Positions 52 to 21,737 of a stretch of 64,000 nt of DNA are shown one piece after another (positions within the stretch are counted from its first letter, which is position 1; the number at the start of each line of letters is the position of its first letter). Where the stretch lies: contig JAQOOI010000046.1 of NCBI GenBank assembly GCA_028554645.1, positions 157,322-221,321 of the forward strand, in the 5' to 3' direction. The stretch is from Omphalotus guepiniiformis. Taxonomy: Eukaryota > Basidiomycota > Agaricomycetes > Agaricales > Omphalotaceae. The notes beneath the pieces are model-generated. The model did no database searches and had not been told where the DNA came from. It saw nothing but the letters and a program-made list of their open reading frames with translations. Position numbers and translations under genes: made by a program.

Positions 52-407
52 TCACCGCCACCAAAAGCGGGGATGCAGCATCTTCTCATACCCATACTTC
101 ACCATGTCAAAATCTAACTTCCCACCACTCGATTGAACATGTTCGACAAAACGTCTCATCTGCACCTTATCCTTCACATACTCCTCTCGTATAATTTTAC
201 TGTCAGGGTGTGAATCAGACAGTTGTTCCCTGCTTTTGTACGGGATGCAACGAAAGGGAAAGAACATATGAGAAACTATGTCCTCGAACGGAAGGTCGCT
301 GTCCGTCAATTTTCGTGATTTATAAATTTCTAAAACAAAGGAATAGCACAGCATGAATTGAGTTCAGTTTTTTGAAAAAGAATCCGGAAACCACGCACCT
401 GTGAGCT
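52..407 (-). pseudogene. Copy A, 3' half: exon 2 of transposon-split orphan gene
   Basis: This is the downstream half of a two-exon gene whose upstream half lies 19 kb away at 19,434-19,740. Exon 2 is 52-329, following an acceptor ending TTTTAG. The last 9 nt of exon 1 are 399-407, followed by a GTGCGTG donor. The reading contains the family signatures EIYKSRKL, VSHMFFPF, YKSREQLSDSH, KIIREEY and GGKLDFDMVKYGYEK. With the right-hand piece minus one 7-bp duplication, exon 1 is 316 nt and exon 2 is 278 nt, giving 198 codons including the stop. No other lesion is visible, so the insertion may be the only defect. Function is unknown; the family looks lineage-specific. Confidence 0.85.
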
Positions 408-414
408 CGGGAGC
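408..414. repeat. Left target-site duplication of giant transposon
   Basis: CGGGAGC here is identical to 19,434-19,440 at the other end of the element. The flanking bases do not extend the match, so the duplication is 7 bp. Deleting one copy together with the element restores the host reading frame. Confidence 0.9.
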
Positions 415-457
415 CCGTAAAATAACTAGTTAAAATCAGAACTTGGCAGTGATGACC
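415..457 (+). repeat. Left terminal inverted repeat of giant transposon
   Basis: Begins CCGTAAAATAACTAGTT and ends near GTGATGACC. It matches the reverse complement of 19,391-19,433 at 27 of 43 positions without gaps. The best-conserved parts are AACTAGTT (positions 10-17) and GAACTTGGC. Confidence 0.8.
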
Positions 458-564
458 GAATATCAACCTGGGTGAAGTTCAATGACAAATCATTATATTC
501 ATTGTAAATACATTACAACGGAATGTACAGTACAGTAGTAAATAACAATAATATTAATATGCAC

Positions 565-965
565 CCGTTTGAACTCCCGTCGTGTAGAAATGAACTTGGT
601 TTGAACTCGGTCGTGATTCAATGAACTCGCCGTTGGGATTTGAACTTGAGGAATGTATTGAACTTGCGTTGAGTGGATTTGAACTTGAGCATTTTGGCCT
701 GGAAATGAACTTGCACTCGAAACATTTGAACTCGACGACTTTTGAATTGAACTTGAAGGTTTTGAACTCGAAACATTTGAATTGAACTTGAAGGTTTTGA
801 ACTCAACGACTTTTGAATTGAACTTGAAGGTTTTGAATTGAACTCGCCGGTTTTTGTTGAATTGAACTCGCCGGTTTTTGAATGGAACTCGAGGTTTTTG
901 AATGGAACTCGAGGTTTTTGAATTGAACTTGAGGCTTTTGAACTCGACGAACTCGGCTTTATACT
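565..965 (+). repeat. Left subterminal array of TTGAACT repeats
   Basis: About 20 copies of a TGAACT(C/T)G motif, mostly preceded by T and spaced roughly 12-30 bp apart, all on the plus strand. Spacers are variants of GAAGGTTTTGAA and GCCGGTTTTTGAA. The open frames that run through it are low-complexity by-products. By analogy with hAT-type elements, such arrays can be transposase-binding sites; that role is inferred here. Confidence 0.8.
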
Positions 966-1085
966 GACAAAAGAAAAAACAAAATAAACATATCGTACGC
1001 GGGTATTGTACAAGTACAATCAACGATTCTTTCAGACGCAGGTCAGATTAGATGAACACAAAATAAAATAAAACTTACCTTCCAA

Positions 1086-1529
1086 TCACAGCAAAGAAAT
1101 GAGTACAAAGACCGGAGCAACGATGTTCGAAATTACTACGTCCGGAGTTCCCTGAAACTCGAAAAGCTCGCAATGTCGTCGATGGCCTATGAACCTGTTA
1201 CGAGGAATCACACAAAAACACGAACGAAATACGCACAATGAATACAAGTATCTCGCGGGCGTCGTACGCATAACGTTTCCAGCATGGCATGGCAGAGTTT
1301 TTCTGAACAGCAAAGAAGGAATGAGTGACAACCAGCAAAAAAAAACGAACTTACCGGCTCGAACGTATTCTCGTACAGGTACCGCGAGGCACCAGTGCTG
1401 TTGTTGCCCTCTACACTGTGCAGCCCACTCTCGTTTACGTCGTCGGAGGTTGGTCGTGCGACCTATTTTGTAGTGATCGGTGCCGACGATATGGAACACG
1501 TAGAGGTATCCCGGTCTGTCCGCTATCAT
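1086..1529 (-). CDS. T5orf172 (GIY-YIG-like) domain protein
   Basis: Three exons (1355-1529, 1237-1302, 1086-1186) give 113 residues with all phases closing. The protein starts with RPGYLYVFHIVGTDHYKIG followed by RTTNLRRRKREW, the hallmark opening of the T5orf172/MUG113 domain. Exon 2 gives KLCHAMLETLCVRRPRDTC and exon 3 continues CHRRHCELFEF, matching the usual RPR-C-x-x-C-x-x-HxExFEF end of the domain. The domain belongs to the GIY-YIG nuclease-like fold; whether this one cuts DNA cannot be told. It lies inside the giant transposon beside the left array, so it is cargo or an accessory protein. The C-terminal tail after FEFQG could be altered by another splice (a GTAAGT follows directly). 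Confidence 0.75.
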   Translation of the reverse strand: MIADRPGYLYVFHIVGTDHYKIGRTTNLRRRKREWAAQCRGQQQHWCLAVPVREYVRAGKFVFFCWLSLIPSLLFRKTLPCHAGNVMRTTPARYLYSLCVFRSCFCVIPRNRFIGHRRHCELFEFQGTPDVVISNIVAPVFVLISLL

Positions 1530-1763
1530 CTCCGTAAAGTGTGAAGGGTGCGCGAGAAGAGAGTTGTTTGCGACGAGAGAGTGAATTGCGAAAGTGAGAG
1601 CGAGAGATCGAAGTTGTTTGTTGCCACAAAAGTCGTCGTGGTTGAATGAATCGTCTCAAGCTATTAGTGATGAGATGTTAACTACGAGATTCACGGTGAA
1701 TACAACGTCACCTGATTTTGAAGAATATATGAAAGACCAACCTTAGCTGTTTTAGAGGAAGTC

Positions 1764-2279
1764 TTACGAGCTCACCGAAACGGTTTGTTGCTGGCGGCCG
1801 TGGGAATTTGATATGGAGAGTGCCTCGGTACGTATCTTGCTCGCTCTGCAGTGATGAGGACACTGTAGAAGGACAATGTCTGTAGGTTCTGAAATAAAGA
1901 AAGATTCTGAGAGATAGAACACGTCCAGAATCGGTACAAACTCGGGATCAGGCCACCGTTGAAACCGAATTGAGCATGTGCGCACGAGCGGGGCAATGTG
2001 TGGGGAAGCAAAGAACTGGAGGCGTTCAAAGGCTTGGGCAAGCCCCTTGCGCTGGAAAGTCTGAAAAGAGTATTTGACGGTCTCCCAGGAGTACTCACAG
2101 ACAATAGTGAGATTGCGATACAAGTAGGAATGAGTAAGCCAACGAAACGAGCGACAAGTCAAAGCAGTGCTACGCAAGCCAGGAAGATCCAGCTTGTGCA
2201 AAGCCCCAGGGTAAAGCTGCAGTGCTAGCGCTATTGCGGCGCACTTTTCATGTGAGATCGTGGTTGTACCGTTTATGAG
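1764..2279 (-). pseudogene. F-box-like protein fragment
   Basis: An open stretch preceded by an acceptor-like TTCAG reads ALALQLYPGALHKLDLPG, then LRSTALTCRSFRWLTHSYLYR and a Leu/Phe-rich stretch. The ST-L-TC-R-S-F-x-x-L-x-x-x-x-L-Y/F-R pattern is characteristic of the second half of F-box-like domains in Agaricomycete leucine-rich proteins. It stops after about 145 residues, far short of the usual 400-550, and no continuing exon is evident. It lies back to back with the PRP31 fragment inside the giant transposon, so it is probably a second piece of host DNA picked up by the element. It could be a small functional derivative, but I see no start codon with good context upstream. Confidence 0.5.
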
Positions 2280-2315
2280 CTGAATACTCGCTAATCATAT
2301 TCTTTTTACTAACAG

Positions 2316-2850
2316 CTTCTGGGCGCTCAGAAAAAGATAGCAGCCGGATTTTCCTCTGTGACCCAGAGACGGCAGCCCGGTTTCGTTTTCCAGTCTGAAC
2401 TGGTCACACAGACACCGCCAGAATACCAGATAAAGATTCAACGAACAATAGGAGCCAAGGCTGTTCTTGCAGCACGAATGGATTTGGAACGCCAACAAAG
2501 GGATGGTAGGCTTGTTCCTCTGTGCTCTACCTACTCTCGTTCCTTTGACGATGCGCCATCATATAGGTAGCTATGGAGAATTACTACGAGATAAGGTCGA
2601 AAAGCAAATAGATCGTCTTGCTGCTCCCCCTCCATCAAAGGTAGTACGGTTTACTCATCGCGCATGACTTTAGTGCACGGAAAGCAAAGGAAGCTTACGC
2701 ACAAACGGAGCTGCGCAAGTTACAGAATCGTATGGCGTTTTGGCGAAGCAGAGGAGGAAGTGGGCGCGTTTGACGAAACGAAGGGTTTGGGTATGATTGA
2801 TGTCGGGACCGGTAAAGTCAGAGAAGGAATGGGAGAGGCAAAGAGTAGAG
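2316..2850 (+). pseudogene. PRP31: Captured fragment of pre-mRNA splicing factor PRP31
   Basis: After an acceptor (ACTAACAG) the reading gives [48 protein letters not shown]; a short intron; then [66 protein letters not shown]. These are successive blocks of the Nop/Prp31 C-terminal region of PRP31, a U4/U6-U5 tri-snRNP assembly factor. The gene is broken. The N-terminal half is absent, the segment that should link PPPSK to ARKAKE is missing, and one extra T near 2,741-2,745 shifts the frame after MAF. The piece retains an intron, so it was acquired as genomic DNA, not cDNA. It lies within the giant transposon; the functional host copy must be elsewhere. Confidence 0.85.
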
Positions 2851-3111
2851 GTTTGCTGGATTTTATTCTTTCTGTTGCCCCTTTCATTGATTCATATCGC
2901 TTTTGTTAGCTAAAATGTCAAAGGAAGGCTTGTTATTCGTGTATGCTTTATCATCCGTCCACAGAGGAAGCGACAGTGGGGAAAGCAGGGGGACATTCAT
3001 CTTGGCTGGGTACAGACAGAAGGTAGAGAAACTGAAGTAACAGGTTTTACAATCGTGATATTACATTCGCACTCCATCCCTATTACCGTTGGTTATATGG
3101 ACAGCGTAGGA

Positions 3112-3432
3112 TCAACAAATGGTGGACGTGCACTGGCAAATCCAATGAGTGTCGCGCTTCGTAAGAGGGAACATTGAAACAAACCTCTTGACGATAGGGA
3201 ACGTGCGCCGCTGCTCGGCCCGCCACTTGCGCACCTGGTCGGCTAGCGTCGAGCCAGGGGGTACTTCCCGAAGTATGTCTATCCCGCACTTCTTGAAGAG
3301 GTCTCGACACTCCTTCTCCAGATTTTTGTACAAGATTGCTTGCTGTTTTGCATAAGCCACGTGTCCGGGGGTGGATTGTTTTGATGCCAGGCTTGACCAC
3401 ACCTCATACATTTTGGCAAATGCTCGAATACA
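3112..3432 (-). pseudogene. Transposase C-terminal remnant beyond in-frame TGA
   Basis: Immediately after the TGA the same frame reads CIRAFAKMYEVWSSLASK, GHVAYAKQQAILYKNLEKE and CRDLFKKCGIDILREV. This is the expected C-terminal extension of the transposase (a helical region with the pattern F-x-x-M-x-x-V-W...AYA...). A CGA-to-TGA transition in the codon after EFM would explain the stop. Whether the tail is dispensable is unknown. Confidence 0.65.
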
Positions 3433-6400
3433 TCACATGAATTCGGCATGCTTGATTTCTACTTGTTCTTCCCATCGCTCGAAGTTCGCTTCATCTCGGA
3501 AGAACTTCACTCTCTCCTCTATAGATACTTTGCTGTCAGTATGTTGTTCAGCCACTTTTGTACGTCACTCACGCTCCTCTGCCCATTCATCCACCTTGGC
3601 CGAATCTAAACCTCGCCGCCAAATCCATCCGTCCTCGCTACTGGTGTGCTCATCTTTGGCCTTCTTCGCTGGCGGGGCTACAATCGACTAGCATGAGGTG
3701 GTTCTTGAAAAAACCATAATCGTAATACCTACCTTTTGTGGGCGATGCCTGTCGCTTTGGTGCTATAGAAAAATGAATTAGATATAATGACCTTGACCAA
3801 ACATGTTGCTAACTTGCCTTTTCGTCTTGTCATTTCCGTTGCTCCTCGTGACTCTTGCGTGGATGATGAATCTTTTTCGGTCCTCTCCCACTTCATCCCA
3901 TTCCTGGCCTGATCAGTTTCGATAGATATACTAGCAGCAGCACCTGCTCTCCATAAAGCTCCATCCATGTGCCGCGATGCCCCAGGACCCCGTTTGACTG
4001 TAGTCTGTTGCCGCCATGTATCCTCCTCTCGAAGCTCTTGCCACTCTTCTGAATCCTGTTGGATGGCGCCCAGGTTCACGAGAGCTCGACGATGACGATT
4101 GTAGTGATATAACTGTTCCTTTCGCCTTGCAATATAATTGTTGATGACAGTTGTGCTGCGAGTGTTCTGGTCCTGACCACGATGGTGGACAGCCTTGTAG
4201 TCTCCGGCTGCAGTCAGCATGCGAACGGTCGCCTGTAACTCGAGGATCAAATCCCATGCTAATGCCTTTCGCAGGTCAATCTCCTTTTGAGCCAGTTCGC
4301 CCAGCCCTAGCTCGAGGTATTGATCGACCGGCACGTCTGAAGGGATCCATAGAACCTCGTCCTCCACATCACAAGGCTTCGCTGTACACACCAAGTCCTC
4401 TATGCTCGGCATTACTATAGGCTGTTGAATGCGTAATTTCTCAATCCTTCGCGAGAGCTTCACTCTTCGTTCTTCTATTTCTTGCTGAGCTTTATCGTCT
4501 GATCTCCTCCCTGTTGCCCGAACATCCTTCCCCTTGTGTTTGATGATCGCTCTAGCTGAGATATGAGTAAAGTACGGGATAAAAAGTGTGATTCAGATTG
4601 AACGCACTGAGCTTCCTGAATTGAAAGTGCTTCTTTCAGGAACCAACCGATCAATGTCTCCTGTACCACAGCGTCGACGCCGCATGATATGACTGCAGTG
4701 GACTTGAGCATTTTCTGCATCAACTGCGTGAACGATAGCGCTGGAGAGACAGCATGTCAATAAAATCCATCAGATTACATTACATTGACCTTGACCGTAT
4801 TCTCACCTTTACTTGAAGCCTGAGCATAGACCGAATGAACCAGCCGTTTTTTTTTCTTGTCGATGGTCGGAGAACAATCTTGCTGGTTCCAAGCCTCGAG
4901 CTCGTTCTGGTGAATGACGCATAAAGCACGAAAATTGTCTCGAGCTTGAATGTGCCGATTCACTGCATATGTGAGCTCCTTATACAGCTGCTGACCTGCA
5001 TCTTTTTGTTGGTGAGCTGGCCCCTGTCTTCGATATTATGTGCACTTACCCATGTTCAAGACTTTCCGAGAAGACCAAGCCATAATCATTTCAATGATCA
5101 CATCTTGCCGATGGCCGTTGCTCATTTGTCTCACCGCAGGACCAAGAGCATTTGTTTCCCCCCAAATTCCCTCCGCACTCTCTCCGTAGAAGTGGCCTGT
5201 GCATTCTTTGTAGGCTGAGGCAAACAGATACATGCACATGTCGAGATGATTGCGAACATGCATGGCAGGAATGGTGAAGCGCATGTCGCGAATGACGTAG
5301 GCCAAATCTGGAAACCATGCGGAGAATCGTTGCAACAGATGTACAGAATAATTACACTGGCTATCGTAGCTCAGCACTTGATCTGGAACACGACCCTCTG
5401 TGAATTTGGTCCGACGCAGTGCATGCGCCAACGCCAAATCCGTATTCGCAAAACGTTCACCAACCTGCAGGTCCACGATTCCTTGTGGTATCCCATGGTC
5501 ACACATCACATTGACCACCCCAGTAATGTCCATTCCCCTGAACTTTTTCTTGTTTTGCCTGGAGATAGCGTTCAAATAGGTGCAATTGGCCTTCTCCTCC
5601 TTCGATTGCTGCAATTCACCATTTTCCGTCGTGATGCCCTGCTTATTATGTGCTGCGTCCTTCTGAAGCTGTGGTACCTCGTCAATATACTTCTTTTCTT
5701 CTTCATGATGCGGAAATATTGAGCGTCCTTCGTATAATGAGACGTCTGTCCCATCGTGATTTTTGCTGAAGTGATTGAGCTGAAAATTCCCATCAAGTGT
5801 TCGACGACAGGAATGGAGATGCCTGAGATCATTTGGTACACTCTCCCAACCATCCTCCATATTCACGTTCTCTTCTGGACAGCTCGGGCAAAAGACGGCG
5901 AGGTTTCCACAGGGGCGATGGGTCAGCACGCTGTCAATGCCGTGGCCTTGCCCTGACCATTTGTTCGCTCGCATGAATGCCCATAAGCGCGTAATGGCGA
6001 GGAAATTGGCGTAGAACTCTGGCGCGGTGTGCGAAAAGTTGTAGTCGGTAAGCTGAGCAAGCGCTCGACAGTAATCATACGCGTGCTTTTTGGACGATTC
6101 CGAATGTAGCTGAAATTCTCTGAGCACTTTGAAAGTGTACGCAGTTTTCGGCTCTACCACTGACCCAGGGAACAGGTTCGCAGCGAACAGTTGGTCCCAT
6201 TTCTCAGGTCTACCCATGCAGTGACAGTACGAAACTCGAGTTGCATGTGCACCATTACTGTCTATGACATTCAACAACAGAGCATCCTCGCCGTAAGGGC
6301 AAGGGTCTCCTTCGTGTCCCAGATGGATAGACCATTGCGGACTCAGCGCAGACAGGTCGTGACGCCTAAAGTAACTATCTTCAGGTCCCCAAAACTCCGC

Positions 6401-6842
6401 CCAATGAAAAGGTAAATGTGTGTGGCATGCCAGGAAACACTGATTGCACAGTGGCGCTAACTGGAAGCAATCCCTGCATCGCGTAGTCCGAATGCGTTCC
6501 GCACAAGAACAAGGCTGTCCTATACGTGGATCTGCGTCCTTTGAGATGTAAGAACGAAGTAACGCTTCAGATCTCATCCCATACTGCTCCAAAAGATTGG
6601 CACGCTGCACTGAATATCCTTAGCCTGTCGCACCTACACATCGTACCAAGCAAGCAACGTACTCGTGTCTTCACTTCCGCCTCGTTGACGTTCAAATTCG
6701 AAGCCTCTCCCTGTGACATGTCATTCGCACCATCTCCCTGTAGACTAGGACGAATAGCGTTCTGCAGTTTCTTTGCCGGACGGTCCACTAAGATTTGAGC
6801 GAGAATATCCGGTTTGGTGGGACGTCTCCGGTTCGGTGCCAT
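3433..6842 (-). CDS. KDZ-superfamily transposase with CxC2-type cysteine cluster
   Basis: Eight exons (6647-6842, 5050-6609, 4807-4995, 4608-4740, 3818-4551, 3733-3762, 3573-3677, 3433-3518) give 1,010 codons in phase; one intron uses a GC-AG donor. The N-terminal region has the cysteine cluster CSCAERIRTTRCRDCF...CNQCFLACH followed by LPFHWAEFW, as in CxC2 domains attached to KDZ transposases. The core follows: MDITGVVNVMCDHGIPQG, SYDSQCNYS, MHVRNHLDMCMY, YGESAEGIWGETN and MSNGHRQD. The C-terminal block (LGLGELAQKEIDLR, ARRKEQLYHYNRHRRALVNLG) also fits the family. Translation ends at an in-frame TGA (3433-3435), although homologous-looking sequence continues in the same frame to 3,112. The enzyme is therefore either truncated by about 107 residues or disabled. 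It should bind and cut the element's ends. Confidence 0.85.
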
Positions 6843-6954
6843 CTGCAGCCTGCGGTTAACTGTTGACTCGTGAAGGTAGTGAGTCCTAACTGACCTTGAA
6901 CTTTGTTGCTTTCTTTCCCTTCCTTGGTGAGCCCGTGGACAGGCAGGGAACACA

Positions 6955-7195
6955 AGGACCGACCGAAAATCGGTAGGGAGACGACTTGCAGTCGCCTACC
7001 CAGTAACCACCAGACGTGGCTCTAATATCTGGAAATATATAGAACCGACAAGATAGTCGGTGGGTGCACGACGTGAAAGTCGCGCGAGGGTTGTCCCACG
7101 AGAAGTGGAAAAGGCCTTTTTTTGAGGGGAGTAATCCCGAGCGGGCGACAAGAGAGGAAAAGACCGGAACAAGGTAGCAATCAACGGACGGTTTT
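6955..7195. repeat. Short palindromic hairpins upstream of transposase
   Basis: The stretch upstream of the transposase start has several short inverted repeats: ACCGAAAATCGGT, CGACTTGCAGTCG, CGACGTGAAAGTCG. The same style of hairpin recurs elsewhere in the giant element near 13,240, 13,410 and 16,150-16,215. No convincing gene is seen from 6,960 to about 7,690; the part near 7,200-7,540 is TA-rich with several TATA-like stretches. Confidence 0.5.
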
Positions 7196-7696
7196 CAGAG
7201 TCACGTGATTTTGTCGATAAATAAACACCTAACCCTAGTTCGTGCCCTTACTCACCCCCTATATAACCTCTTCGAATTCTGGTCTGGACTAGCTCGTGTA
7301 TCTGTACTTACTATATCGTTTATGCAATATGATTTCAATGCTTTCGCTGTCCATAAGGGTCGATACGGATAATATTGTAAAATATGAAAAGTATTACAAA
7401 CACGCTGTTATACATTGCACCGGACTGATATCATTTCCTGCGAGCCGCGTCGTTTTGAAGTCCTGATGTTGTAGCTACATTGACATTGTTGAACCACGAA
7501 GAGCTGTCGATGTACGTGTCCACACCCTATATATCTCAGTGAGGCACTGTCATTCAACACTCAGTTACCTCAAACATACCATGTTCAAGCTGTTTTTCTC
7601 TTCCCGCTCTTCCGTTTTTTGCTCCGTGGCGCTCTCAGGCCTTTGCCTGGAAAGGGGTTGTCAGTTTCTAACACTGAAGCGAAGCCGGCACGAAAC

Positions 7697-7885
7697 TCAC
7701 CTCGGCTCTTCTTCAGCTGTATGCTCCCTAACAAGATGCTTCAATCCACGCAATGCAACTTCGTTCCAACTCAACGTGTTCAACGATGTTGCGGCCTCTG
7801 CGCCACTCTTTCCTTCTTTGGCAGTCACTTGCTGCTTCGTTCCTCTAGATGCGACTGCGTTCCGAATTGACGCGTCGTTCAACAT
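7697..7885 (-). CDS. Small duplicated coding unit, copy 1
   Basis: Reads MLNDASIRNAVASRGTKQQV ... SLNTLSWNEVALRGLKHLV ... TAEEEPR and runs into a GTGAGT donor-like site. It is a tandem paralogue of the unit at 7,946-8,173: both start ML, share NxVAS...QQVxA, and share the core L(S/T)WNEVALRGLKHL followed by TAE-E/D-E. Conservation of a protein core while the DNA has drifted suggests minus-strand coding. The product is not recognised. Downstream exons toward 7,600 are possible but not defined. Confidence 0.45.
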   Translation of the reverse strand: MLNDASIRNAVASRGTKQQVTAKEGKSGAEAATSLNTLSWNEVALRGLKHLVREHTAEEEPR

Positions 7886-7945
7886 TGATCTCGGGGTTTC
7901 TCGTCAGCTCCTGAGACTAGTAAGAATGCGTAACCGAAACCTCAC

Positions 7946-8173
7946 TTTGTCTCATCTTCAGCTGTAACCGGGGTGATGAGGTGCTTCAAGCCACGCAACG
8001 CGACTTCGTTCCAGGTCAACGCGTTCGACGAGGTTTCGGGCTCGGTCCTTCGACTGGTGTGGGGTGGTTGGCTGTCTGCGCGTCTAACAACGTCCTGAGA
8101 CGTACCTCGTTTCTGCTCTCACTTGCTGTTCGTCTGATGCGACAGTGTTGCAGTTTACTTCCTTTATCAACAT
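7946..8173 (-). CDS. Small duplicated coding unit, copy 2
   Basis: From the ATG at 8,173 a first exon reads MLIKEVNCNTVASDEQQVRA. A short intron (GTACGTC to GCAG) then brings in QPPHTSRRTEPETSSNALTW, NEVALRGLKHLITPVTAEDE and ends at a GTGAGG donor-like site. It pairs with the unit at 7,697-7,885 with a period of about 245 bp. Function unknown. The gap from 8,174 to 8,545 toward the next gene shows only a GAAGGTGGT microrepeat (about 8,247-8,272) and nothing else convincing. Confidence 0.4.
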
Positions 8174-8545
8174 GGTGGAAACGGGGAGGAGGTGGTCAAT
8201 CAGAGAATGTAGTACTTACTTATATGACTGCCAATCGTGAAACTTGTGAAGGTGGTGAAGGTGGTGAAGGTGGAAGATGGATCAGTATGTTATGTCTGTA
8301 TTGAACGACATATCTTTCATCTATATTGCCTCATTTGCATTTGCCTGCCTGCCACGTACTGATCCCGGTACGCGCACGACCTTTGCCAAAAAAACAGCTC
8401 GCGTTTTCACCTTAGTGTCCCCTTCCCCACATGTTGGTCACAACAATTCAATATTGAGCTTGGCAACAAAAAACACAGTGATGATGATGTTGGAGATTAG
8501 TGCTACATGTTGAACTACATTTTAAAAAAAACAGAAAAGCAATAG

Positions 8546-10704
8546 TCAAGCAGGCAGGCGACGAGGTAGAACAGGCGGGCGTTTGAGTACGACGAAGGCT
8601 GACTGAACGTAAAATTTAACAATGTTATGCTCCCATTCTTTCCCGCGTGACGGTAACAGGTTCAGGTCTGCATCAATCCCGCGTCGCCAGATAACAGGCT
8701 TCGAACCCGACCAAGTGTCCAGTAACCGCCAAAAATGCCTCAGAGCGTGATATCGTTCCACCCAATCCTCTGCAATAAGGCCTACATTCGCATCAGGGAA
8801 TGGCTGAAAGGTGGTCCCTGTTTGAAATATTTTGTCGACCAAGGCTTCTCGGGCTCGACGGTGCTGAGCTTCCGCAACTGCAAGTTGGGCTGCGCTCTCA
8901 TTGACTGACGGTCGTGGTTTCGAAGAGTCCAATTGACGATCAACTGCAAGCAATTCGTGTCTGAAGTTGATCATTGCCAGCTCCCATATAAGTACTTGAC
9001 CCCGCCTGCGGTCGAACGGACCTGTTCGCGAAGTCACAGGCGACGCCTTCCCACCGAATCGGTCCATAGTGTCTCGCACCAAATGAAACGCATGACTCTT
9101 TATTGCCTGCTTTTTTGTCTCAATCGCCCGACCAGGATCAGTATTCAGTGTTGGCATGTTCAGAACCTTTCTCCACGTCTCGGTGCTTTGTGGCTCCACA
9201 GGCGTCTGCAAATCTCGGCATCTCGCCAACCACGCTGGACGGAAATGCTCCCATTGATGGAGAAGGTTGTCCTGTCGCCCGTCGGTTCGGACGCCAAAGA
9301 ACAAACCGGGATCTGGCACAACGAAAAACTTCTTTTGCTGAGTGATGCCCTGAGTTTGTATGGTGAGATTGACTCGCTCCCATGATGGAATCGTCGCTGG
9401 TGCCATTGCATCCGTTGAATCATAGTCGTCGAAAGGATTGCGTTCCTCGGGTGGTGCTACATTGAAAGGTAGAATATCAGTAAGAGTGCCTCAGTGTGAG
9501 TAGATATTGAAAACTGACGCCCCACGCCCTTTCCAAACCGAGGTTTGGCGGAAGTGCCCCTCTTGGACTGGCTGTATGGGCTCACAGCAGCGGCGTGATT
9601 GATGCGGTCATTCCTAATAACTCCGGTCGACGTTTCGGCAGGTTGGGCAGCGGCAGAGTGCGAGTACACAGGGGAAATGATACGATCGACCCCAACCCGA
9701 TGGGACGACTGGTAGTCCCCCGGATGGTGGCTGTTTTGGAAAGGGCTAACATCTAAGAAACAATTGATGCCGGAAATACGAATGGCTGCGAACTTCGTCT
9801 CAGACCCAGCCTGTGTAGTGGCGATAGGAAGGTATGGGGGCTTGGCCTGGGCTACGCAGATCTTTGGTGGGGCAGGTTGTATTAACTGCACCTCCTTCTG
9901 AATGACCTGGCAGCGGAAGCTTGAGTAGGGTCGCACAAAGTACACAGGGAGTCCGGCGCGAAATAGCAACGAAGCCTGGGCATCGTCCCACACAAACACA
10001 CCAAGACGTGTGGCGCACGTTACTGTGGCTGCCTGTCCTTCACCCCTCATCAGCGCAGAGAATGTGTCGACATAGTCAAACATGGCCTGCAAAGTCAGCC
10101 ACGCCCTTTGTAATTCCACCAACCCTCGTTGAAGATCACGGATAGGGGAGGCAATGGTAGTGATGTGGATGAAACAGATCTCCATTGTTTGACGCAGTTC
10201 CCCTACCAAAGCTCTGTCACGGCCATCAGACGAGGTCAAGAAGAACTTTTGTGTTCGATCCTCCATCTCTTTCACGGCTCGTTGGAGGTCCTCCTTGAAA
10301 TCATTGGCGTAACCAGTGGTACCGCCTACAATTGCCTGTCGTGTCGGACTGTCCGGGAAAAAATGGAGGTAACAGTCTTTAATATCGCTCCACATGACTC
10401 GATAATCCCAAAAAGGCCAAAGTTCATCTTCAGGTCGCACTGGTATGCATGCAAGATAAGGATACGTTGGATGGAAAGGTTGCGGCCAGCGACAAGGGTC
10501 ATCCGGACCATAGCGAGCGTCGGACCGACGATATATATCTCGAGTGGATCCATAGGGAGGTTCTGGAATGCTAATCATGTTGGGGGAGGTGATGAACGCC
10601 TGGATTTTCGGCAGGAGTGCTCCTGTTACGCCGTCAGAGTACGTGATTTCGACACCTTCTTCGACCTTGTTGCGGGTAAGATTGATTGAGTGCGTTGCTG
10701 ACAT
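8546..10704 (-). CDS. 698-residue protein of unknown function, transposon cargo
   Basis: Two exons (9519-10704 and 8546-9456) with a GTCAGT...TGTAG intron give 698 residues in phase. The start MSATHSINLTRNK is the first in-frame ATG. The N-terminal half contains CRWPQPFHPTYPYLACIPVR, DELWPFWDYRVMW, LQRGLVELQRAWLTLQAMFDY and RAGLPVYFVRPYSSF. These patterns (WP-x-x-FHP, GxPV(Y/W)(F/Y)(I/V)RP) recall large unnamed proteins common in Agaricomycete repeats. The C-terminal half has VPDPGLFFGVRTDGRQ and a basic helical region. No catalytic motif or membrane segment is seen. Its location between the transposase and the other cargo genes suggests a role in transposition or element maintenance, but this is inference. 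Confidence 0.7.
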
Positions 10705-11318
10705 TATGCTACACATGGAATGAGAAGTATTGAGAATTATTACAAGCCATGAAGGAAACTGGAAACGCACGGCTCAGTCCTTTATGCAATGCAACCAGTA
10801 AAACACCAAATGGAACCGATGGAACAGTGACAGACGCCAAAATGGCGCCGCGATCTAGACTAGCACGAGATGTGCTAGTGTTTTGCAGAAGCACAATGAA
10901 GTGCCTGTGTTCAAGAGATAGCGTTCAAAGCTGTGTGAGGAAGTAGAGGAAGGAGGAAGAATATTAAGTTAAGCGCCGCGGCGCCACATCAACTGGCTCA
11001 TTAAGCGCTCAGCGCTCAGGCCACAGCGCTGCGCCACACGCAGCCCCATCTATCAGGGCACCACTTATTTAACCACTTATCAATATATCAGGCACTACTT
11101 ACTTGACATCAAAACTCTCATAAAATGTGACGTTGTGTGGTTATAAGCCAAATATATATTTATCGTTAATGTAACTAACGCTATTCACGACTCATTGAAA
11201 CATCGGATGAAGTGCAGCTTCCACTCCCTCAGCACATAGTTCCTTGTAAAACCCGACGGCGTCGTCTCTGTTTCGCCAAGCGTTACAACGTTTTTAGCGA
11301 CAGTAAAGGGGGGAACAC
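10705..11318. other. Intergenic stretch in giant element, no gene seen
   Basis: Contains a GC-rich palindromic patch (GCGCCGCGGCGCC, near 10,972-10,984) and short repeats of GCGCTCAGCGCTCAG. I see no reading frame that resembles a protein. Confidence 0.5.
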
Positions 11319-12056
11319 TTACAGATCCTCAAAGACTCGACACTGTTCCTTCCATTGTACCACATGCCGCAGACTCTGACCATCCACTACTTTTCCCTTC
11401 GCTTGCTGCCGTTTCTTCTTGGGGCTCGCAGGCGAGAACGTGCACGGAGGATCAGTTCCCATGTACTGAAAAGGATCGGCAGGGTCCGGAATACGAGGTC
11501 GAGTAGGTGTAGCAGGGCCTGAAGGGGAGGATAAGAGACGAAAGCGCTGTGTGAGCTCCACCACTGATGCACCCTGAGCGACTGATGCAGGCTGAGGATT
11601 GACGCGATGAGTGGAGGGGTTTGCAGCGGTAGGCGATGACGGCAAAGGTTCAGAGGCTGGAACTGAAGGCGAAAAGGGAGACCCCACGAAAGGTTGCAGT
11701 GTGCCTGTCCAAGGATTCACGAATGAATCGTCCTCGCCATCGCGGTGATCGTGACTTTCAAGGCATGCAAACCTCCACCATTTCAAGGCCGAGTCCTGCG
11801 AGCTGAATTTCCGGGTTATGGCCTGCACCTTTTTCGCTTGAAGGCTGGCACGATTCCTGCAGAGCATTAGAATATCTGTTTCGAAGAAAAGGTCACGGAC
11901 TCACCAGTCCTCATAAATACCAGCTTTCGCTCCGTCGAATAGCACATAATAAGACGGGGTGACACTGTTATAGACAGGGCTTTTCAGGCAGTACAATGGG
12001 GGCTTGCAACCTCGGCGAGGGTCGCCACTAAAATCATTATCACTGGGGTTGCTCAT
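11319..12056 (-). CDS. RNase H1 N-terminal-type (viroplasmin-like) domain protein
   Basis: Exons 11905-12056 and 11319-11856 give 229 residues, with an in-phase intron (GTGAGT...CTGCAG). Residues about 35-80 read YYVLFDGAKAGIYEDW, NRASLQAKKVQAITRKF, SSQDSALKWW. This is the YYxVxxGxxxGIYxxW...F-x-(S/T)x-x-x-A-x-x-(W/F) pattern of the RNase H1 N-terminal / caulimovirus VI domain, a small nucleic-acid-hybrid-binding fold. The rest is Pro/Ser-rich and ends with basic SPKKKRQQAKGKV, a possible nuclear signal. No RNase H catalytic domain follows. Such stand-alone domains are widespread in mushroom genomes. As cargo of the giant element it may bind nucleic acid. Confidence 0.65.
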
Positions 12057-12357
12057 GGATGAAGGATAAGAGGACAGTCACACTGGTGTGACCATCTAAA
12101 CCAGCAGGATCCGCGAGGCATCCATCACGGCCACATAATTTTCTTTTGCAGGTCAAATGATTTTTCAACGACCGACAAAAAAGGATTCTGATCGCAGGGG
12201 TGATGATCTCTATGCAACCAATAGCAATCTATTCAGAACTCGTAAACTACGATACATCACGGACTAGAACCAAGGAAGGTCAAATCAATAACTTCGCGCT
12301 CGGGGGAGGAGAATCCCATTGCTGTATCTCCATCAGCTGAAGAGGGGAAAGACGATG

Positions 12358-13090
12358 TTAGCTATCAATGACAGGGAAGTATGGGTGGCACAACTGACAG
12401 TCTGGAGTGGCTGCGCGGGGTGCAGGAACCTCAACGATGTTATGCGGAGTGTACCAATGGGGGTTATAGTGAAGACGGTGCCTAAATACTTCAGGCCTCC
12501 CAACAGTGCGAACGAATTCACTGAACGCAACCCGAACGTATCCTCGAATAGAGGTGCTGAAAGCTAAGGGTTTCCTCGGGTCGCAAAGAGGGCCGCAAGG
12601 AACTGCTCGTCTCATCGCGTCTGTCGGGCCATGGGTCCTAGACCACACTGTCCGATCGGCACGCTCGTAAAGGACAACCATTGTGCCGAGGACACAGCGC
12701 TGGAGAAAGCTGGTCCTCATATGTTGGGGCTGCTCGTTGGCGCACTCCCTATGTTCATGCCCTTCGGCCACACACTATAGATGTAAAATGGTAAATTCTG
12801 TTAGCGAGGCGCATGGTAAGGACATATTGACTGACCTCTTGTAGAGTTTGCCCCATTCGTGAGAAGTCATTACGACCGTAATCAATCCAGCGGGCCAGTT
12901 CACACGAAGGGAACCTGGGGTTGTTCACTACGGGCTGCACGATGCCGTAGATGACATGCTTGAGCATGTATTCGAGCGCACGAGCAGGTGAGACAATAGG
13001 TGGGACAGACGAAAGAACACCCAGCAGGTTCTGGACGTCCGTGTTGAGGGGGTCATTGTGAGGTTCAACACTTTGAATGTCCACGTCCAT
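12358..13090 (-). CDS. 223-residue unknown protein, transposon cargo
   Basis: Exons 12836-13090 and 12358-12774 (intron GTCAGT...CTATAG) give 223 residues starting MDVDIQSVEPHNDPLN. Exon 1 includes RALEYMLKHVIYGIVQPVV; exon 2 contains several Cys and His residues (ECANEQPQHMRTSF, DCQLCHPYFPV) and the aromatic stretch HRLHYNPHWYTPHN. The intron position and donor context (Q/E-E before GT(C/G)AG(T/C)CAATATG) match those of the gene at 14,875-15,831, so the two may be distant relatives. I do not recognise the family. The 300 bp upstream (12,057-12,357) shows nothing. Confidence 0.55.
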
Positions 13091-13220
13091 GTTGAGCAAT
13101 GCATCAAGTTGGAACTGTTATATACGCTTCAGCACCCAATCACAGGTAGGCAGTGGTTGACGCGTATACCTGTTGGGGTGACCCGAAACTACGGACATGC
13201 AGCACTCTGATAGGAGAAGG

Positions 13221-13515
13221 TGTTACGGCAGGAGCCGCCCGGCGCGCGACTCCAGGTCGCTCGCCACACAGAATGACGCAAGGGTCGTCAAAGCAAAAAG
13301 CAAAATAAAATAAAAAAAGGAAAAAAAAAAAGGAAAAAAGACCCAGTGCTGAGTTGTACTGGAAGAGAGTTGATACGCGCTTGTTGTTACGGCAGAAGCC
13401 GCCCGGCGAGCGACCTGGAGTCGCGCGCCGCACAGAACGACGCAAGGGTCGTCAAAACGAAAAAAAGGCCCAATGCAGAGTTGTACTGGAAGAGAGTTGA
13501 TATGCATTTGTCGTT
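13221..13515. repeat. Two-unit tandem repeat of about 160 bp
   Basis: TGTTACGGCAGGAGCCGCCC (from about 13,221) recurs as TGTTACGGCAGAAGCCGCCC (from about 13,384). Each is followed by a short hairpin (GCGACTCCAGGTCGC and relatives), GACGCAAGGGTCGTCAAA, and GAGTTGTACTGGAAGAGAG. An A-rich tract (13,300-13,340) separates the units. Not coding. Confidence 0.7.
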
Positions 13516-13613
13516 GTGGAGCTAAGTCACGTGAATTGGATGAATAATTCCACGATCACGCGCAAGCAAAGGACCACGAGGCTCACATGAGCCCAAGTAA
13601 TCGTCACTCTTTT

Positions 13614-14165
13614 CTTAACCTTCACCTCGTCCGGCGTTGGCCACTTCATTGTGGTCCATCAAGCATGGCGACCGGTGTGTCGTTAGTGCAGTCTGACCAT
13701 AGGTCACTACCATTTTTTTCGAATATATCTTTGTTGACCCGCGGGATAAGACCCGGTACCTTCAACTAGTTGTTACCTGAAGACCTACCTACTATCGTAC
13801 TTAAGTTATCCTTCACCTCGTCCGGCGTTGGCCACTTCATTGTGGTCCATCAAGCATGGCGACCGGTGTGTCGTCAGTGCAATCTGACCATAGGTCATAA
13901 CCACTTACGAATATATATTTGTTGAACCTAAATTGATACCGGAAGACCCTACTGTCGTACAAAATTTATCGTTCGCCTCGTCCAGCGGTGGCCACTTTCC
14001 TTGTGGTCCAGCAAGCATGGCGACCAGTGTGTCGTTTAGTGCAATTTGACCATAGGTCATTGCCTTTTTTCAAATATATCTTTTTGGTCCGGCGGATAAG
14101 ACCTCCACTTGTGGTTGAGAGAGCATACCGACCGTCGCGTCGTTAGAGAAATTGACCATAGGTCA
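13614..14165. repeat. Degenerate tandem repeat, four units of 130-190 bp
   Basis: Units start near 13,620, 13,808, 13,975 and 14,105. They share TTGGCCACTTCATTGTGGTC, AAGCATGGCGACCGGTGTGT and TGACCATAGGTCA, followed by GAATATAT(C/A)TTTG. The last unit is shortened. No coding signal. Confidence 0.7.
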
Positions 14166-14344
14166 CTGACACAATGAAGATGAGTATTGCCGGACTGCCC
14201 AGGCATGCGGTTCATCTGAAACGCATTTAGTTTTGTTTTTGTTGGCCAGGGCTCGCCGGCGCACTCAGAGCTCAGTCAGTCTCCTTATAGCTAGAGCGAG
14301 AGGGTTGTGGGGAGCGGGTGCACTTTCGTGCACCTGGTTCGATC

Positions 14345-14665
14345 TTACAAGATTGGCGGAAAGTGTTGGTCAGAAAGGAAGGAAAAACCAATGATCGAAT
14401 TTCAGAGCTTTGCTCCGAAGGTAGGCGTCATCATTGAAATCCTTTTGAGTTGTGCTGAATCTCAGTATGGCTAGACCGAGAAGTGCAGGCTCAACTTCGG
14501 GCGCCAGTCGTGCAGGTGGTGCTATCAAGATTGACCGGAAGGGTTGGTTGGGAAGGGAGAACGTTGAATCCAATCGGCAGTTGCGCGTGAGATGGATTAA
14601 CTAGAAGTGTTAGCATTGCCCCGAAGGTAGGTCACATAACTGAAAATCGATTTGAGTAACGACCC
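14345..14665. repeat. Two-unit degenerate tandem repeat of about 180 bp
   Basis: CAAGATTGGCGGAAAGTGTTGG (near 14,348) recurs as CAAGATTGACCGGAAGGGTT (near 14,527). Each leads to GCTCCGAAGGTAGG or GCCCCGAAGGTAGG and an AATC(C/G)(T/A)TTTGAGT element. From 14,666 to 14,874 I see nothing but AT-rich sequence. Confidence 0.55.
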
Positions 14666-14874
14666 TGATAGATCCCGATTGTTCTGTGACACAAAGTTTC
14701 TAATATTATTTCTTGAGTTTCTTAGCGAAGAATGCAGCAACTTTCAAGAATTTTATTTTTGCGGTAAGTCAATTGCATGAATTTTTCACAGACCCACTAA
14801 TCTAAACACATCGCTACAGAATACTACTACTTTTTTCTCAGTTTTTGGTTTTTCAAATGTACTTCGAGCGGTAA

Positions 14875-15831
14875 TCAAAATTGTTTCACTAAAAGATCCC
14901 ACCCTGGAGTGTTGGTGATTCCCACCTTGCGAAAGAGCAACAAATCACCAGGCTGGACTCGGAGATCAGTGTCCCAATTAATTGGGGCCCATCGAACCGC
15001 TCGTTTTTTGGAAATCTCGAAGCGGTCGCCGGTCTCGATGCCAGATTGGCCCAGTCGAATCTTGTTGGAATCGAGTGAGAGACGAAAATCGCCGTGGAGT
15101 AAAATGACTACCCTGCGAGCGGGGAGTCCATCCTGGAATGAAAATTAGCTCTATTTGCGCGCATGTGAGAGCAGGAAAAATGTACCTGAAGCCAGAAGCG
15201 CAAAGTTACCTTTCCAGTGGGGCAAGGGGAGTCTACAGCGGGTGTAGCGGGAGAGAGGCTACGAGGCCTGTTTGAAGCGTTTGCGCGCGGTACTGACGTT
15301 GGGGCGTCCTCGGGGTCGAAGCGGAGCTTGCAGATAACGTGCTAACAGGAGACGACAGATTCGCTCGGAACGGGGTATACGGCTCAGTCGCGCGAGTGGC
15401 CCTCGTGGCACGTAATGCACCAGTGGTAGCCCGAGAGGGGCGACGCAAATCTTCGCGATAGCGTAGCCTATCGGCGATGAAACCCTCTTCGAAGACTTCG
15501 GGATGTGACTCTCGCAAGTTGATATGGGTAACGTAGTGGCGGTCACGAAAGAAATAGGAAGCGCGTGCTTCCACGAATTGCTGTGATGCAAATGGTCAGG
15601 CTGGGTCATCACTGAGACATATTGGCTCACCTCCTCGTACCAGCGACCGATGTTAGAGAGGTGGCGGTCACCTGTGTCGAGGTGAAGACCACGAGCACCA
15701 CGAGGTGGAGGGATCAACCGGCGCAAGTGCTTGACAAGATCACGCTCGATCGCACGCATCATAGTCTGCTTGTCGCCTTGATAGACGAGAGCGACCTCAC
15801 CGTATCGTTCGACGTACCCTTCTGGACGCAT
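14875..15831 (-). CDS. Unknown multi-exon protein, transposon cargo
   Basis: Exon 1 (15631-15831) reads MRPEGYVERYGEVALVYQGD ... GRWYEE. An intron GTGAGC...ATCACAG joins in phase to exon 2 (15,580 downward): QFVEARASYFFRDRHYVTHI, SHPEVFEEGFIADRL, then a Ser/Thr/Arg-rich stretch. A third, clearly open exon (14875-15132, after TTTCATTCCAG) reads RRVVILLHGDFRLSLDSNKI, RLGQSGIETGDRFEISKKR, WDTDLRVQPGDLLLFRKVG. The join between exons 2 and 3 is not solved: the exon 2 frame stops at 15,233 unless a further splice occurs around 15,200-15,300. The family is not recognised. Gene limits are therefore approximate. Confidence 0.5.
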
Positions 15832-16319
15832 GAAAGGAAGGACAAGAAGGGGAGGGGAAGCAAGTATCAGCTTTTATGACCTGAGCCCTACGAGGAGGTC
15901 AGTACAGTCAGATATGTTCACGTACACATAGGGACTGTTCGGCAGTGCCGGGTCAATTTTTCGTAGACTTGCTGGTTGTCTGGTTTCAAGTTAACGAGTG
16001 TTCAGATCTGGAGATCTGAAGTCTGGAATTCTCAGGCCGTAAAATCATTTTCTCTAGGTATCCAAATAAACAAGTAGAAGGCAAGAAAAACAACAAACAA
16101 AGTTTACTGTGCCAACCGAGGGGGAAATTTGATCGTCTCTCCATACCCAACCTTGCGCGACTTTCAGGTCGCCAGAGCACACGACGTCAAGTCGTGTTTG
16201 CGAGCTGACATCTGGTCAGCCCACACTGAGTTCTCCCCCCGCCTCTGACCCGTCGTAGTTCGAAAACTTCCGGATGGACACATCGGAAATCTCGGACCTG
16301 CTGACCGCGCCTGTGGACT
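15832..16319. other. Intergenic stretch with short hairpins
   Basis: Between two divergent cargo genes. At 16,150-16,215 there are three consecutive short hairpins (CGACTTTCAGGTCG, ACGACGTCAAGTCGT, GCTGACATCTGGTCAGC). Promoters for both neighbours must lie here. A possible upstream start for the plus-strand gene (MDTSEISDLLTAP, 16,274) would need a 25-nt intron, which is too short to trust. Confidence 0.45.
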
Positions 16320-18689
16320 ATGGAGGTACGCTACCCAGAGGTTTTCGTAGATGCAACTGAGGCACTGACGCGTCATTTAGCGTGTTCTAATAAACGAAGA
16401 AAAGGTCCTACAGGAGTTCTGACCGCGGAGCAGAAAGCAAGAGTGGATATGCTGATGCCGTCATGGACTGCCGTCTTGGAGGCGAATCGTGTGGCAAAGA
16501 AGCCGTATCGGTCCAAAAACCCGCCTGAGGTGTTGGCGTGGCTGCAGGCGGTAGCAGTGAGGCTGCTGGACGAATCGCCCGAGTTTGCGGCAGTTAGAGA
16601 GCAGAGAGCGTTGATTAAGGTGGGCCTTGAGAGTTGAAAGATGTTTGGTTTGGTTCTGACAACTTTCCGCCTGTAGAACATTGTTTCCGCCTTCAAGAAC
16701 TACCGCTTTCATCAATATAGCGAGGAGTCAAACACGGTACAGTCACCCGTTCCCCCCGACGCAGGCAAAAGCCATGATCGCGTGGTCTTCAGTAACCCTT
16801 CGAAAGCTTCGGCGGTCTTTTTCTCGTTCCAGTCGAGGGTTTCCGGCAAGGACATCTTCAAGGAGGAGAGACTAGAGGAAATCAGAAAAAAAGCAAAGGA
16901 GCTACAGCTGTCGAATGATGCTGAAGGACGACAAAACAACAATGCGGGTTTGTTTGCGCGCGCGCTCGCAATCTGTTATCGCGAGTGTGAGGAGAAGGAG
17001 CGATACGAGCAGAGGGCAAGTGAACTAAACGTCAACGAAAAGGAGTAAGTTAAACCCCCCTCCTCATTGAAATTATACAGCTGAGCCTCGGAATAGGAAT
17101 CGCGCAAAGTTCTTAGGAGCGGCTCACAGCACACTCTCTGCCATACGAGATACTGGACGCTTAGGACAAGTCGGCATGCAGTTGATGCTGGCGTACATGA
17201 GTGAGAGTGGTCCACGTGCGACTATGTGAGTTGTTCCTTTGACGCTGTCAACTAATCAACTTACATTTTTGCGGTTCAAGGTTACCAATTGACCCTGTAT
17301 GGAAGCCTGAGGGCGAGGAATGGGAGGACGATACCGAGTACGTTGACCGATACGCGTCTTGGGCCGGACAATTTCTTTCAGCTGGTACGTTGAGTAACTG
17401 GTGCCGCCTCGAGTTGATATTGATTGACATTCGAAACATGCGCAGTGCACACACAGGATAACGGACAGCGCCAACACGAGATACCCTCGAATAAGGAGGG
17501 TGTTCCGGTCTTTCCCGAGGTCGATCTGTGGAAGATGACAGGTGAGGAACAGAGTGCGTTGTATAACGCTTATTTCAGTAGAGTTTGGGGTATGTTCGTT
17601 TATTCTACACCTTGCGCAGGGCAATGAATCTGACCTGATCATTCAGAACACAGCTGGCCTTTTGACACCACTATGCCAGCAATCCCATGGGCTGATATTG
17701 CGGAGACTCCAAATCTATTCTACGATACACAAACGCATACGATGCCCAGACCACTTGTAGCAGCAGACTTACTTGAGCTGAGCGACATCATGAGCGTGAA
17801 TAGTTCAATGAGAAAACACTCGGGAGTCGAGGCGGCGTGCCCATTCGTGTTCTACCCGAAAGCTGTTATCCAGCAAAACCTGCATTCACATAAAACGTCG
17901 GTTCAGGAATCATGGTGTGAGGGTGAAGAGGTCGATGGCAAATCGTCGTCACCGATGGTCATGGGTGACATTCCCTTGGGTGAGGAATCTGCTGGAGAGG
18001 ATGACGAAGCGGTGTGGCAGGGCATTGAGGACGATGTCAAGTCATCGTCACCGATGGTGATGGGTGACATTCCTTTGGGTGAGGAAGGTGCTGGGGAGGA
18101 TGACGAAGCGGTGTGGCAGGGCATTACACAGTCGGACAAGACGCCAGGGGACGAGGAAGAAGACGAAGAAGAATGGCAGGGTATTGCCCAGGAAGAAGAG
18201 GGAGATGAATGGCAAGGCATTGCCAAGGGCTCAGTGGAGTCACCAGGCGAGGAGAAAGCGATCGACGTCGGGTGTTCGGAGATCATGCATCACGAAATCG
18301 GTTCCAGTGAAATGGGTACAACAAGACCAACACGGAAGAAGAGGGCGGCTGTGAGTTCTCCACGGGCTCGGTCGGCAGCTCGAGCGTCAGTGCAATTGGG
18401 AGCAAGAGGTCTCAGTGCACCTGCTCCTTTGGACGCCACTCCCAGCCTTTTCATGAATGGTGTCCCACGACCTGAACAGCCAAAGGAGTGGACTGAGAAG
18501 CAGCTTTGGGGAGCGGGGGCACCATCGGGATGGAGGGGTTATGCGATGTTGACGGATGATGGACAACCAATGTCTTGGGTCCCTGGCCTTGGATTTGTAG
18601 AGGTTGATGAGCACACTCAAAAAGTGATTCATCGCGACGAATTTGACAATGTTCGCTACTATGACCGACCGACACGGACTACCAAGTAA
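16320..18689 (+). CDS. 695-residue unknown protein with acidic WQGI repeats
   Basis: Six exons (16320-16619, 16677-17044, 17097-17225, 17281-17384, 17446-17589, 17647-18689) close in phase to 695 residues, which strongly supports the model. The N-terminal half is helical and charged (LTAEQKARVDMLMPSW, NPPEVLAWLQAVAVRLLDES, EERLEEIRKKAKELQLS). It continues GRLGQVGMQLMLAYMSESG and YVDRYASWAGQFL. The middle carries an acidic tandem repeat (SSPMVMGDIPLGEE, AGEDDEAVWQGI twice, then more WQGI units). The C-terminal part is basic then compact (GWRGYAMLTDDGQPMSWVPG). No enzyme motif is recognised. It is the last gene before the right end of the giant transposon. Confidence 0.7.
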
Positions 18690-18718
18690 AACTCGTCTTT
18701 GTGTGCGTGCCCGAAGTT

Positions 18719-19390
18719 TTTACTAACGTGGTCAAGTTCACTACTAATGGTGCGACTTCATCAGTGCAATGTCAAGTTCATTGGTGGGGGTGGAGTTCAT
18801 TGGTGCTGAGTTCAAGTTCATTAGCAAAGGTGGAGTTCATTAGTCTGGTATGAAGTTCATTACTGACAAAGCTCAAGTTCATTGGTAGGGGTGGAGTTCA
18901 TTTTGTAGTCTCAAGTTCATTATTGACGAAGTCCGAGTTCATTAGTGGTGACGGAGTTCATTACGGACCTGGCGCAAATTCATTAGCAAAGGTGGAGTTC
19001 ATTTTTTAGTCTCAAGTTCGTTACTGACGAAGTCCGAGTTCATTAGTGGTGACAGAGTTCATTACGGACCTGGCGCAAATTCATTAGCAAAGGCGGAGTT
19101 CATTTTTTAGTTTGGAGTTCATTATTGACGAAGTCCCGAGTTCATTACTGACGATGGAATGATGGTCATACCTGGCTCTGGTTGAACAAGAAGGTGAAGT
19201 TCATTACTCCAAGGCTGAAGTTCATTAGTGGCATGGGATTCATTACAGACCCAGCTCAAGTTCAATACGCAGGTGAAGTTCATAAGTAGCCAAGTTATAT
19301 TTCATTAGGTTACCAGTACATTCACGCAGGCTTTTGTTGTAGTCTACCATTATGTAATCAAGCAAGTTCATTTGAAGCCAGATCAAGTTA
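18719..19390 (-). repeat. Right subterminal array of AATGAACT repeats
   Basis: About 25 copies of (C/G)AAGTTCATT or GAGTTCATT on the plus strand, i.e. AATGAACT on the minus strand, with longer repeated phrases (GACGAAGTCCGAGTTCATTA, GGTGACGGAGTTCATTACGG). The motif has the opposite orientation to the left array, so both arrays read TGAACT inward from their own end. No coding. Confidence 0.8.
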
Positions 19391-19433
19391 GGTGATGACC
19401 GCCGAGTTCAGAATAGAACTGGTTAAAATTTAC
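19391..19433 (-). repeat. Right terminal inverted repeat of giant transposon
   Basis: Reads inward on the minus strand as GTAAATTTTAACCAGTT ... CTGAACTCGGCGG ... CATCACC. It aligns without gaps to the left end and has AACCAGTT at positions 10-17, where the left end has AACTAGTT. Confidence 0.8.
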
Positions 19434-21682: not shown

Positions 21683-21737
21683 GCGTCGTGTCGCTCAGTG
21701 GCATGACCTTCGATTCTCACTTTGGATTTTTCTCATC

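Follow-up and report, generated by a model that had tools for sequence, protein, structure and literature searches.

A 19,019-bp transposon of the KDZ superfamily sits inside a host gene of Omphalotus guepiniiformis, in a 64,000-nucleotide window of contig JAQOOI010000046.1 (C36:157322-221321). The genome searched comprises 42.5 Mb in 80 contigs, and numbers such as C36, C38 and C79 denote contigs of this one assembly; positions given without a contig are those of the window. We put at roughly 90% the probability that this is a recently mobile, multi-gene KDZ element that moves by cut-and-paste with a 7-bp stagger, after recognition of repeat arrays near its ends. Its exact ends, the 7-bp duplications around its copies, an uninterrupted version of its insertion site, the slight divergence among its copies and the recurrence of its partner genes beside other KDZ transposases all support this reading. 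In the mechanism we propose, the CxC2 and KDZ transposase would most likely bind the subterminal TGAACT arrays and the terminal repeats and cut both tips. The whole 19 kb would then be pasted into the target with a 7-bp stagger, and repair would leave the 7-bp duplication. The features that define the ends are as follows.

408..414, left target site duplication, CGGGAGC
415..19433, KDZ transposon of 19,019 bp with base-exact ends; same end bases on C79 and on C49/C31, uninterrupted site on C38
19434..19440, right target site duplication, CGGGAGC
415..474, plus strand, left imperfect terminal inverted repeat, with the core AACTAGTT about 9 nt in
19374..19433, minus strand, right imperfect terminal inverted repeat, with the core AACCAGTT about 9 nt in, read inward
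570..1058, plus strand, left subterminal array: 18 TGAACT and one TGAACA facing inward and one TGAACT facing outward (first 700 bp)
18735..19410, minus strand, right subterminal array: 24 TGAACT facing inward and one TGAACA on the other strand (last 700 bp)

The sequence-only reading of the window had claimed identical flanking heptamers, inverted termini and base-exact boundaries, and all three were found as described, the inverted repeats being imperfect. The element begins with CCG and ends with TAC. The probability that two fixed positions match over 7 bp by chance is 4^-7, and 2 of 20,000 random position pairs in the window did match. Compared as an inverted repeat, the two 60-bp ends gave a local score of 19.5; when the left end was letter-shuffled 500 times, the highest score was 13. 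The exactness of the boundaries is backed independently by a copy on C79, whose match to the window element starts and stops exactly at 415 and 19433 and which is flanked by a duplication of its own, TGCGTGG. A duplication arising by chance and a boundary created solely in assembly were both considered and set aside, because further copies end at the same bases.

Searching the same genome for copies, as the earlier reading had suggested, returned two further long ones that share both ends with the window element, at 99.3% and 99.5% identity (BLAST). The C79 copy (C79:63327-82355) is 19,029 bp long, with identical first and last bases. The third long copy lies in two pieces, C49 holding element position 88 to the end and C31 holding positions 1-90; the left flank on C31 ends, and the right flank on C49 begins, with CTCATTT. 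A repeat on C20 related to these flanks runs through the site with a single CTCATTT. All three long copies thus carry a 7-bp duplication, every one different. The left flank of the C79 copy gave four matches in the genome, with no full-length second one, and no uninterrupted counterpart of that site was found among them. A fragment on C75 retains only the first 1,631 element positions. Small indels and one nested element aside, the three long copies do not differ in content; pairwise they differ at 61/18,975, 41/18,996 and 42/18,992 aligned sites (0.22-0.32%). Since three copies of about 19 kb differ so little, the whole 19 kb is, on this comparison, one unit that moved recently, as had been proposed.

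The nested element that splits the C31/C49 copy (C31:129548 onward; C49 from about 55863) bears CACTG at its termini, shows a 3-bp duplication, TTG, and has inverted arms that are nearly identical over at least 1.6 kb. Its termini and 3-bp duplication, which we take to be traits of that family, suggest CACTA/EnSpm.

The interrupted host gene reads leftward across the element, in two parts.

19441..19740, minus strand, first 300 nt of host gene exon 1, with the start codon at 19740
52..407, minus strand, remainder of the host gene: exon 1 (last 9 nt), intron and exon 2, with approximate limits taken from the joined model

Both halves were present as claimed. Removal of the 19,019 bp and one duplication reproduced the reported 198-codon frame (197 aa plus stop), with an exon 1 of 316 nt, remainder 1. 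The duplicated 7 bp are nucleotides 301-307 of the rejoined exon, and the insertion point is 9 bp upstream of the end of coding exon 1. An uninterrupted site, for which a search had also been proposed, was found in the same genome: C38 aligns across the insertion point over 450 bp at 93% identity with a single CGGGAGC, and its copy of the gene has an exon 1 that is also 316 nt and a product of 196 aa. Around the insertion the two contigs are collinear, at about 91-98% identity in syntenic blocks, with one inversion of about 9 kb.

C38 is probably the other haplotype of C36, which would make this a true empty site. The C38 stretch could instead be an old segmental duplicate, in which case the site would not be truly empty. 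We consider this unlikely. It would fit the divergence of 1.4% to 5.4% across four aligned blocks, the tandem gene family shared by the two contigs and the inversion they carry. A 1.5-kb probe taken 25 kb from the site matches C38 at 90% and a third contig, C29, also at 90%, and for this reason allelism is the likeliest reading of C38 and not the sole one. Against a duplicate stand the collinearity across the region and the alignment through a single heptamer, and the C31/C49 site likewise has an uninterrupted relative, on C20, though within a repeat.

The inversion lies directly left of the insertion (C36:148288-157044 versus C38:42594-51138). The interrupted gene is one of a family, several copies of which lie close by on both C36 and C38, and the three open reading frames (ORFs) scanned right of the element (window 19441-22402 region) gave no Pfam match over the cut-off.

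The element carries the following genes, with exon models based on splice motifs and homologues.

1086..1655, minus strand, T5orf172 (GIY-YIG type) ORF, stop to stop; Pfam PF10544, E 9.5e-6, above cut-off; relatives at other KDZ loci
1764..2294, minus strand, F-box-like ORF, weak and unconfirmed; Pfam PF12937, E 0.027, below cut-off; unmatched in both the C38 and the C42 element
3434..6842, minus strand, transposase with CxC2 and KDZ, 8-exon model from Pfam and homologue-guided exons, 1003 codons before the first stop
8546..10716, minus strand, gene A, orphan, 2-exon model, 702 aa, relatives in other mushrooms
11200..12056, minus strand, gene D, 3-exon model, ribonuclease H1 N-terminal (Cauli_VI); Pfam PF01693, E 4.3e-6, above cut-off
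12373..13090, minus strand, gene B2, orphan with an uncertain 3' end; weak relatives present in both the C38 and the C42 element
15230..15831, minus strand, gene B1, orphan, matches confined to element loci; differs by 2 bp in length from both other copies
16274..18689, plus strand, gene C, orphan, 7-exon model, 692 aa, last-exon relatives at other KDZ loci

By its sequence, the element is a member of the KDZ superfamily, and we assign it to no named subgroup. The transposase has a KDZ domain (PF18758, E 5.6e-44, positions 6-216 of 217) with an adjacent CxC2 cluster (PF18803, E 5.2e-26), and the imperfect terminal inverted repeats and the 7-bp duplication agree with the superfamily, which has terminal repeats in inverted orientation and short target duplications of about 4-8 bp. 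No ORF or model scanned for genes A, B1, B2 and C gave a Pfam match above the cut-off. Gene A has relatives in 18 database proteins at 26-43% identity, and relatives of the transposase and gene A occur in Dendrothele, Stygiomarasmius, Lentinula, Rhodocollybia, Collybiopsis, Mycena, Mucidula and Marasmius. Comparison of the first part of gene A with viral contigs gave no confirmed match.

Four families of such elements were found in this one genome, of 14.4 kb (C38), 15.1 kb (C42), 19.0 kb (the window element) and 21.4 kb (C41), and 7-bp duplications flank 7 of the 9 copies tested. The C38 element (14,375 bp, duplication CGTTTTC) carries the GIY-YIG gene, transposase, A, B2, B1 and C in the order and orientation of the window element. 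Its identity to the latter is 67% in a transposase exon, 60% in A and 33% in the last exon of C. In the C42 element the transposase, A, B2 (weak) and part of C are ordered as in the window, and its family shows the duplications GATGAGA (C42) and AAGTCCG (C16), with flanks judged by eye and the right end set at CTG. The C41 element (21,363 bp, duplication AGTAGCG) matched A, B1 and C. In the stretches compared, differences between families are commonest at codon position 3, which indicates long-term selection on these element proteins. With boundaries, duplications, an uninterrupted site and several families in a single genome, KDZ transposition should be testable base by base in a mushroom.

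The partner genes also recur across the genome. The 98 KDZ match rows were reduced by hand to one row per locus, giving 55 loci after 43 second-part rows were dropped. Gene A gave 30 rows at 21 loci, gene C 15 rows at 13 loci, and the GIY-YIG gene 84 rows, of which 71 were used (the others being second parts of listed loci), at 68 loci. These counts are lower bounds, the searches scoring best candidates only. Within 20 kb of a KDZ match lie 14 of 21 gene A loci, 8 of 13 gene C loci and 19 of 68 GIY-YIG loci, compared with a naive random expectation of 5.2%. Gene B1, for which 16 candidates were scored, occurs at nine loci (C36, C49, C79, C72, C41, C38, C7, C19 and C78 near 349 kb), and matches to A and C are present at all nine. 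Because several of them recur beside other KDZ transposases, the internal genes look like parts of the element lineage rather than a collection of passengers. Orphan mushroom genes in these families may thus be transposon rather than host genes.

A transposon with a small mobile core that captured host genes, in the manner of a cargo-carrying Starship, would account for the large size and the several non-transposase genes. It would also fit the gene A loci away from any KDZ match, and gene D and the F-box-like ORF, neither of which was found in the C38 or C42 elements, could be passengers. We nevertheless regard such capture as very improbable and discount it, since the gene set recurs, for the most part, with divergent transposases. 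Order and orientation from the GIY-YIG gene through C are kept in the divergent C38 element, B1 matches only at element loci among its scored candidates, and the three long copies are alike in content save for small indels and the nested element. The recurrence of the GIY-YIG gene, A, B1 and C beside KDZ transposases suggests that these genes may have helper functions.

Between the two window arrays TGAACT occurs only eight times, on both strands, in 17.6 kb. Counting both ends, inward-facing TGAACN numbers 43 in the window element, 42 in the C38 element, 44 in the C41 element (right end 508 nt only) and 26 in the C42 family; in 500 letter shuffles the means were 1.5-1.6 and the maxima 6-7. 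Outward-facing copies number 2, 2, 0 and 6, respectively. T predominates at the sixth base in the window and C38 families and A in the C42 family, and C41 has a mixture; in the C42 element TGAACA is also found 12 times, on both strands, between the ends. Judged by eye, an outer box resembling AACYAGTT is common to the four families about 10 nt in, its variants being AACCAGGT at one C41 end and, for the C42 family, GACTAGC; a second shared box, resembling CGGT....CC, lies about 30-45 nt in. The TGAACN arrays are probably transposase-binding sites.

Taken together, the partner genes and oriented end arrays suggest that such elements may need more than a transposase. A stronger version, which we offer tentatively and consider doubtful, is that they form a distinct KDZ lineage with a multi-protein machine of its own, in which transposase, GIY-YIG type nuclease, A, B1 and C would jointly recognise family-specific TGAACN end arrays. 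If true, we would have here a cut-and-paste transposon of eukaryotes whose gene set is multi-subunit and mostly kept across divergent families.

Several results weigh against a mobile element with a lineage-bound set of partners. In the C42 element the GIY-YIG gene is at the opposite end and B1 has no match, and the gene D ORF is matched in neither the C38 nor the C42 element. No GIY-YIG match lies within 20 kb of the C41 element. Loci lacking a KDZ match within 20 kb number 7 of 21 for A, 5 of 13 for C and 49 of 68 for GIY-YIG. The six outward TGAACA of the C42 family belong to one end. The duplications of the C38 and C41 elements came from an offset scan (625 and 676 offset pairs, 7 bp), for which arithmetic gives about 0.04 expected chance matches each. 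Two of the four copies in the 15.1-kb family (C78:727378-742515 and a second one on C16, C16:319200-342000) have no matching duplication, possibly as a result of recombination between copies. The Lentinula relative of gene A (P0014), predicted by AlphaFold with a mean predicted local distance difference test (pLDDT) score of 75, gave 0 matches to solved structures at E 0.001 or better, and gene C had no database relative among 7,996 candidates scored. Finally, every one of the three long window-family copies bears apparent damage, so that any of them may be non-autonomous.

This last point qualifies the earlier claim of intactness: the host frame and the duplication are indeed intact, but the element is not. 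The stop near the C-terminus of the transposase, after 1003 codons in the window copy, is present in two of the three long copies and absent from the C49 copy. Gene A has an internal stop in one long copy, B1 differs in length in one, and the left end of the C31/C49 copy has been split off by the nested element. The element could on these grounds be a non-autonomous or dying passenger, last mobilised in trans by a related intact copy, and among the codons that differ between copies (equal-length stretches, A and B1 left out) 16 are nonsynonymous and 11 synonymous. We see this as possible, at somewhat less than even odds. One copy does not have the C-terminal transposase stop, and most differences are CpG transitions, so most of the damage could postdate insertion.

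CpG transitions make up 44/61, 29/41 and 31/42 of the differences in the three copy pairs. The flanking differences between C36 and C38 include 78 among 579 over four blocks, chosen from a longer block list, one of which had 33/184. When 72 sites were polarised by majority rule, 50 of the changes led away from CpG, and CpG transitions account for 9/13 differences between the C42 and C78 copies and 10/19 in the C75 fragment. We read this excess as deamination of methylated cytosine, which suggests that the copies underwent cytosine methylation and deamination after insertion. The CpG bias would then be a record, in sequence, of methylation on the copies following insertion.

There are several known systems with which the element can be compared. 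KDZ1, KDZ2 and KDZ3 of Cryptococcus neoformans are about 9.2-11 kb long, with terminal inverted repeats of 139-241 bp, a CxC1 cluster and target duplications of 8 bp (KDZ1) or 4-8 bp (KDZ2, KDZ3) (PMC12810828). The Omphalotus elements resemble them in having a transposase with KDZ and CxC, terminal inverted repeats, short target duplications and recent movement; they differ in their length (14-21 kb), CxC2 cluster, 7-bp duplications, short imperfect repeats and several partner genes. Kyakuja elements carrying TET occur in Laccaria bicolor and other Agaricomycetes, and two Laccaria families have a 7-bp duplication, CA..TG termini, no terminal inverted repeats and a TET/JBP gene (PMC12730594). 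The KDZ group, the mushroom host, the 7-bp duplication of all three long copies and an accessory gene moving with the transposase are shared with Kyakuja. Unlike the Laccaria families, the window element has CCG..TAC termini, imperfect inverted repeats and no TET match, and we rejected a Kyakuja assignment because the termini do not fit, though the 7-bp duplication does. The seven Tet_JBP matches in the genome include none on C36, C79, C49 or C31. At C34:105820 and C43:58688 there are Tet_JBP matches, too weak to reach the cut-off of that family, no more than about 6 kb from KDZ matches. Zisupton differs in its 8-bp target duplication.

Marasmius oreades likewise has a KDZ-rich marasmioid genome (PMC8290104, PMC9674265) and large elements, its transposable-element library reaching about 42 kb, kind unspecified (PMC9674265). 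The portions of those two texts covered contain no description of the gene content of KDZ elements. KolobokP (PMC9587614) is also a DNA transposon with a transposase and a homing-type endonuclease, but it belongs to the Kolobok superfamily and has a His-Me finger enzyme, whereas here we find KDZ and a GIY-YIG type protein. Starships share with our element the form of a large multi-gene fungal transposon; they are classed by a tyrosine recombinase and carry accessory cargo, in contrast to the KDZ transposase, 7-bp duplication and recurring partner genes seen here. A scan of the main ORFs and spliced models found no tyrosine recombinase domain. We found no description of the partner gene set or the TGAACN arrays in the portions covered of the open-licence literature, including PMC6431247, PMC5718144, PMC12062965 and PMC12510652; an earlier one in Iyer et al. 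2014, who named KDZ, is possible.

At three loci, on C7, C19 and C78 (near 95, 455 and 328 kb), a KDZ match has the GIY-YIG gene about 4.4 kb off and gene A about 16 kb off in the opposite orientation. B1 and C lie beyond gene A at these loci, which possibly represent a second, larger architecture near 30 kb.

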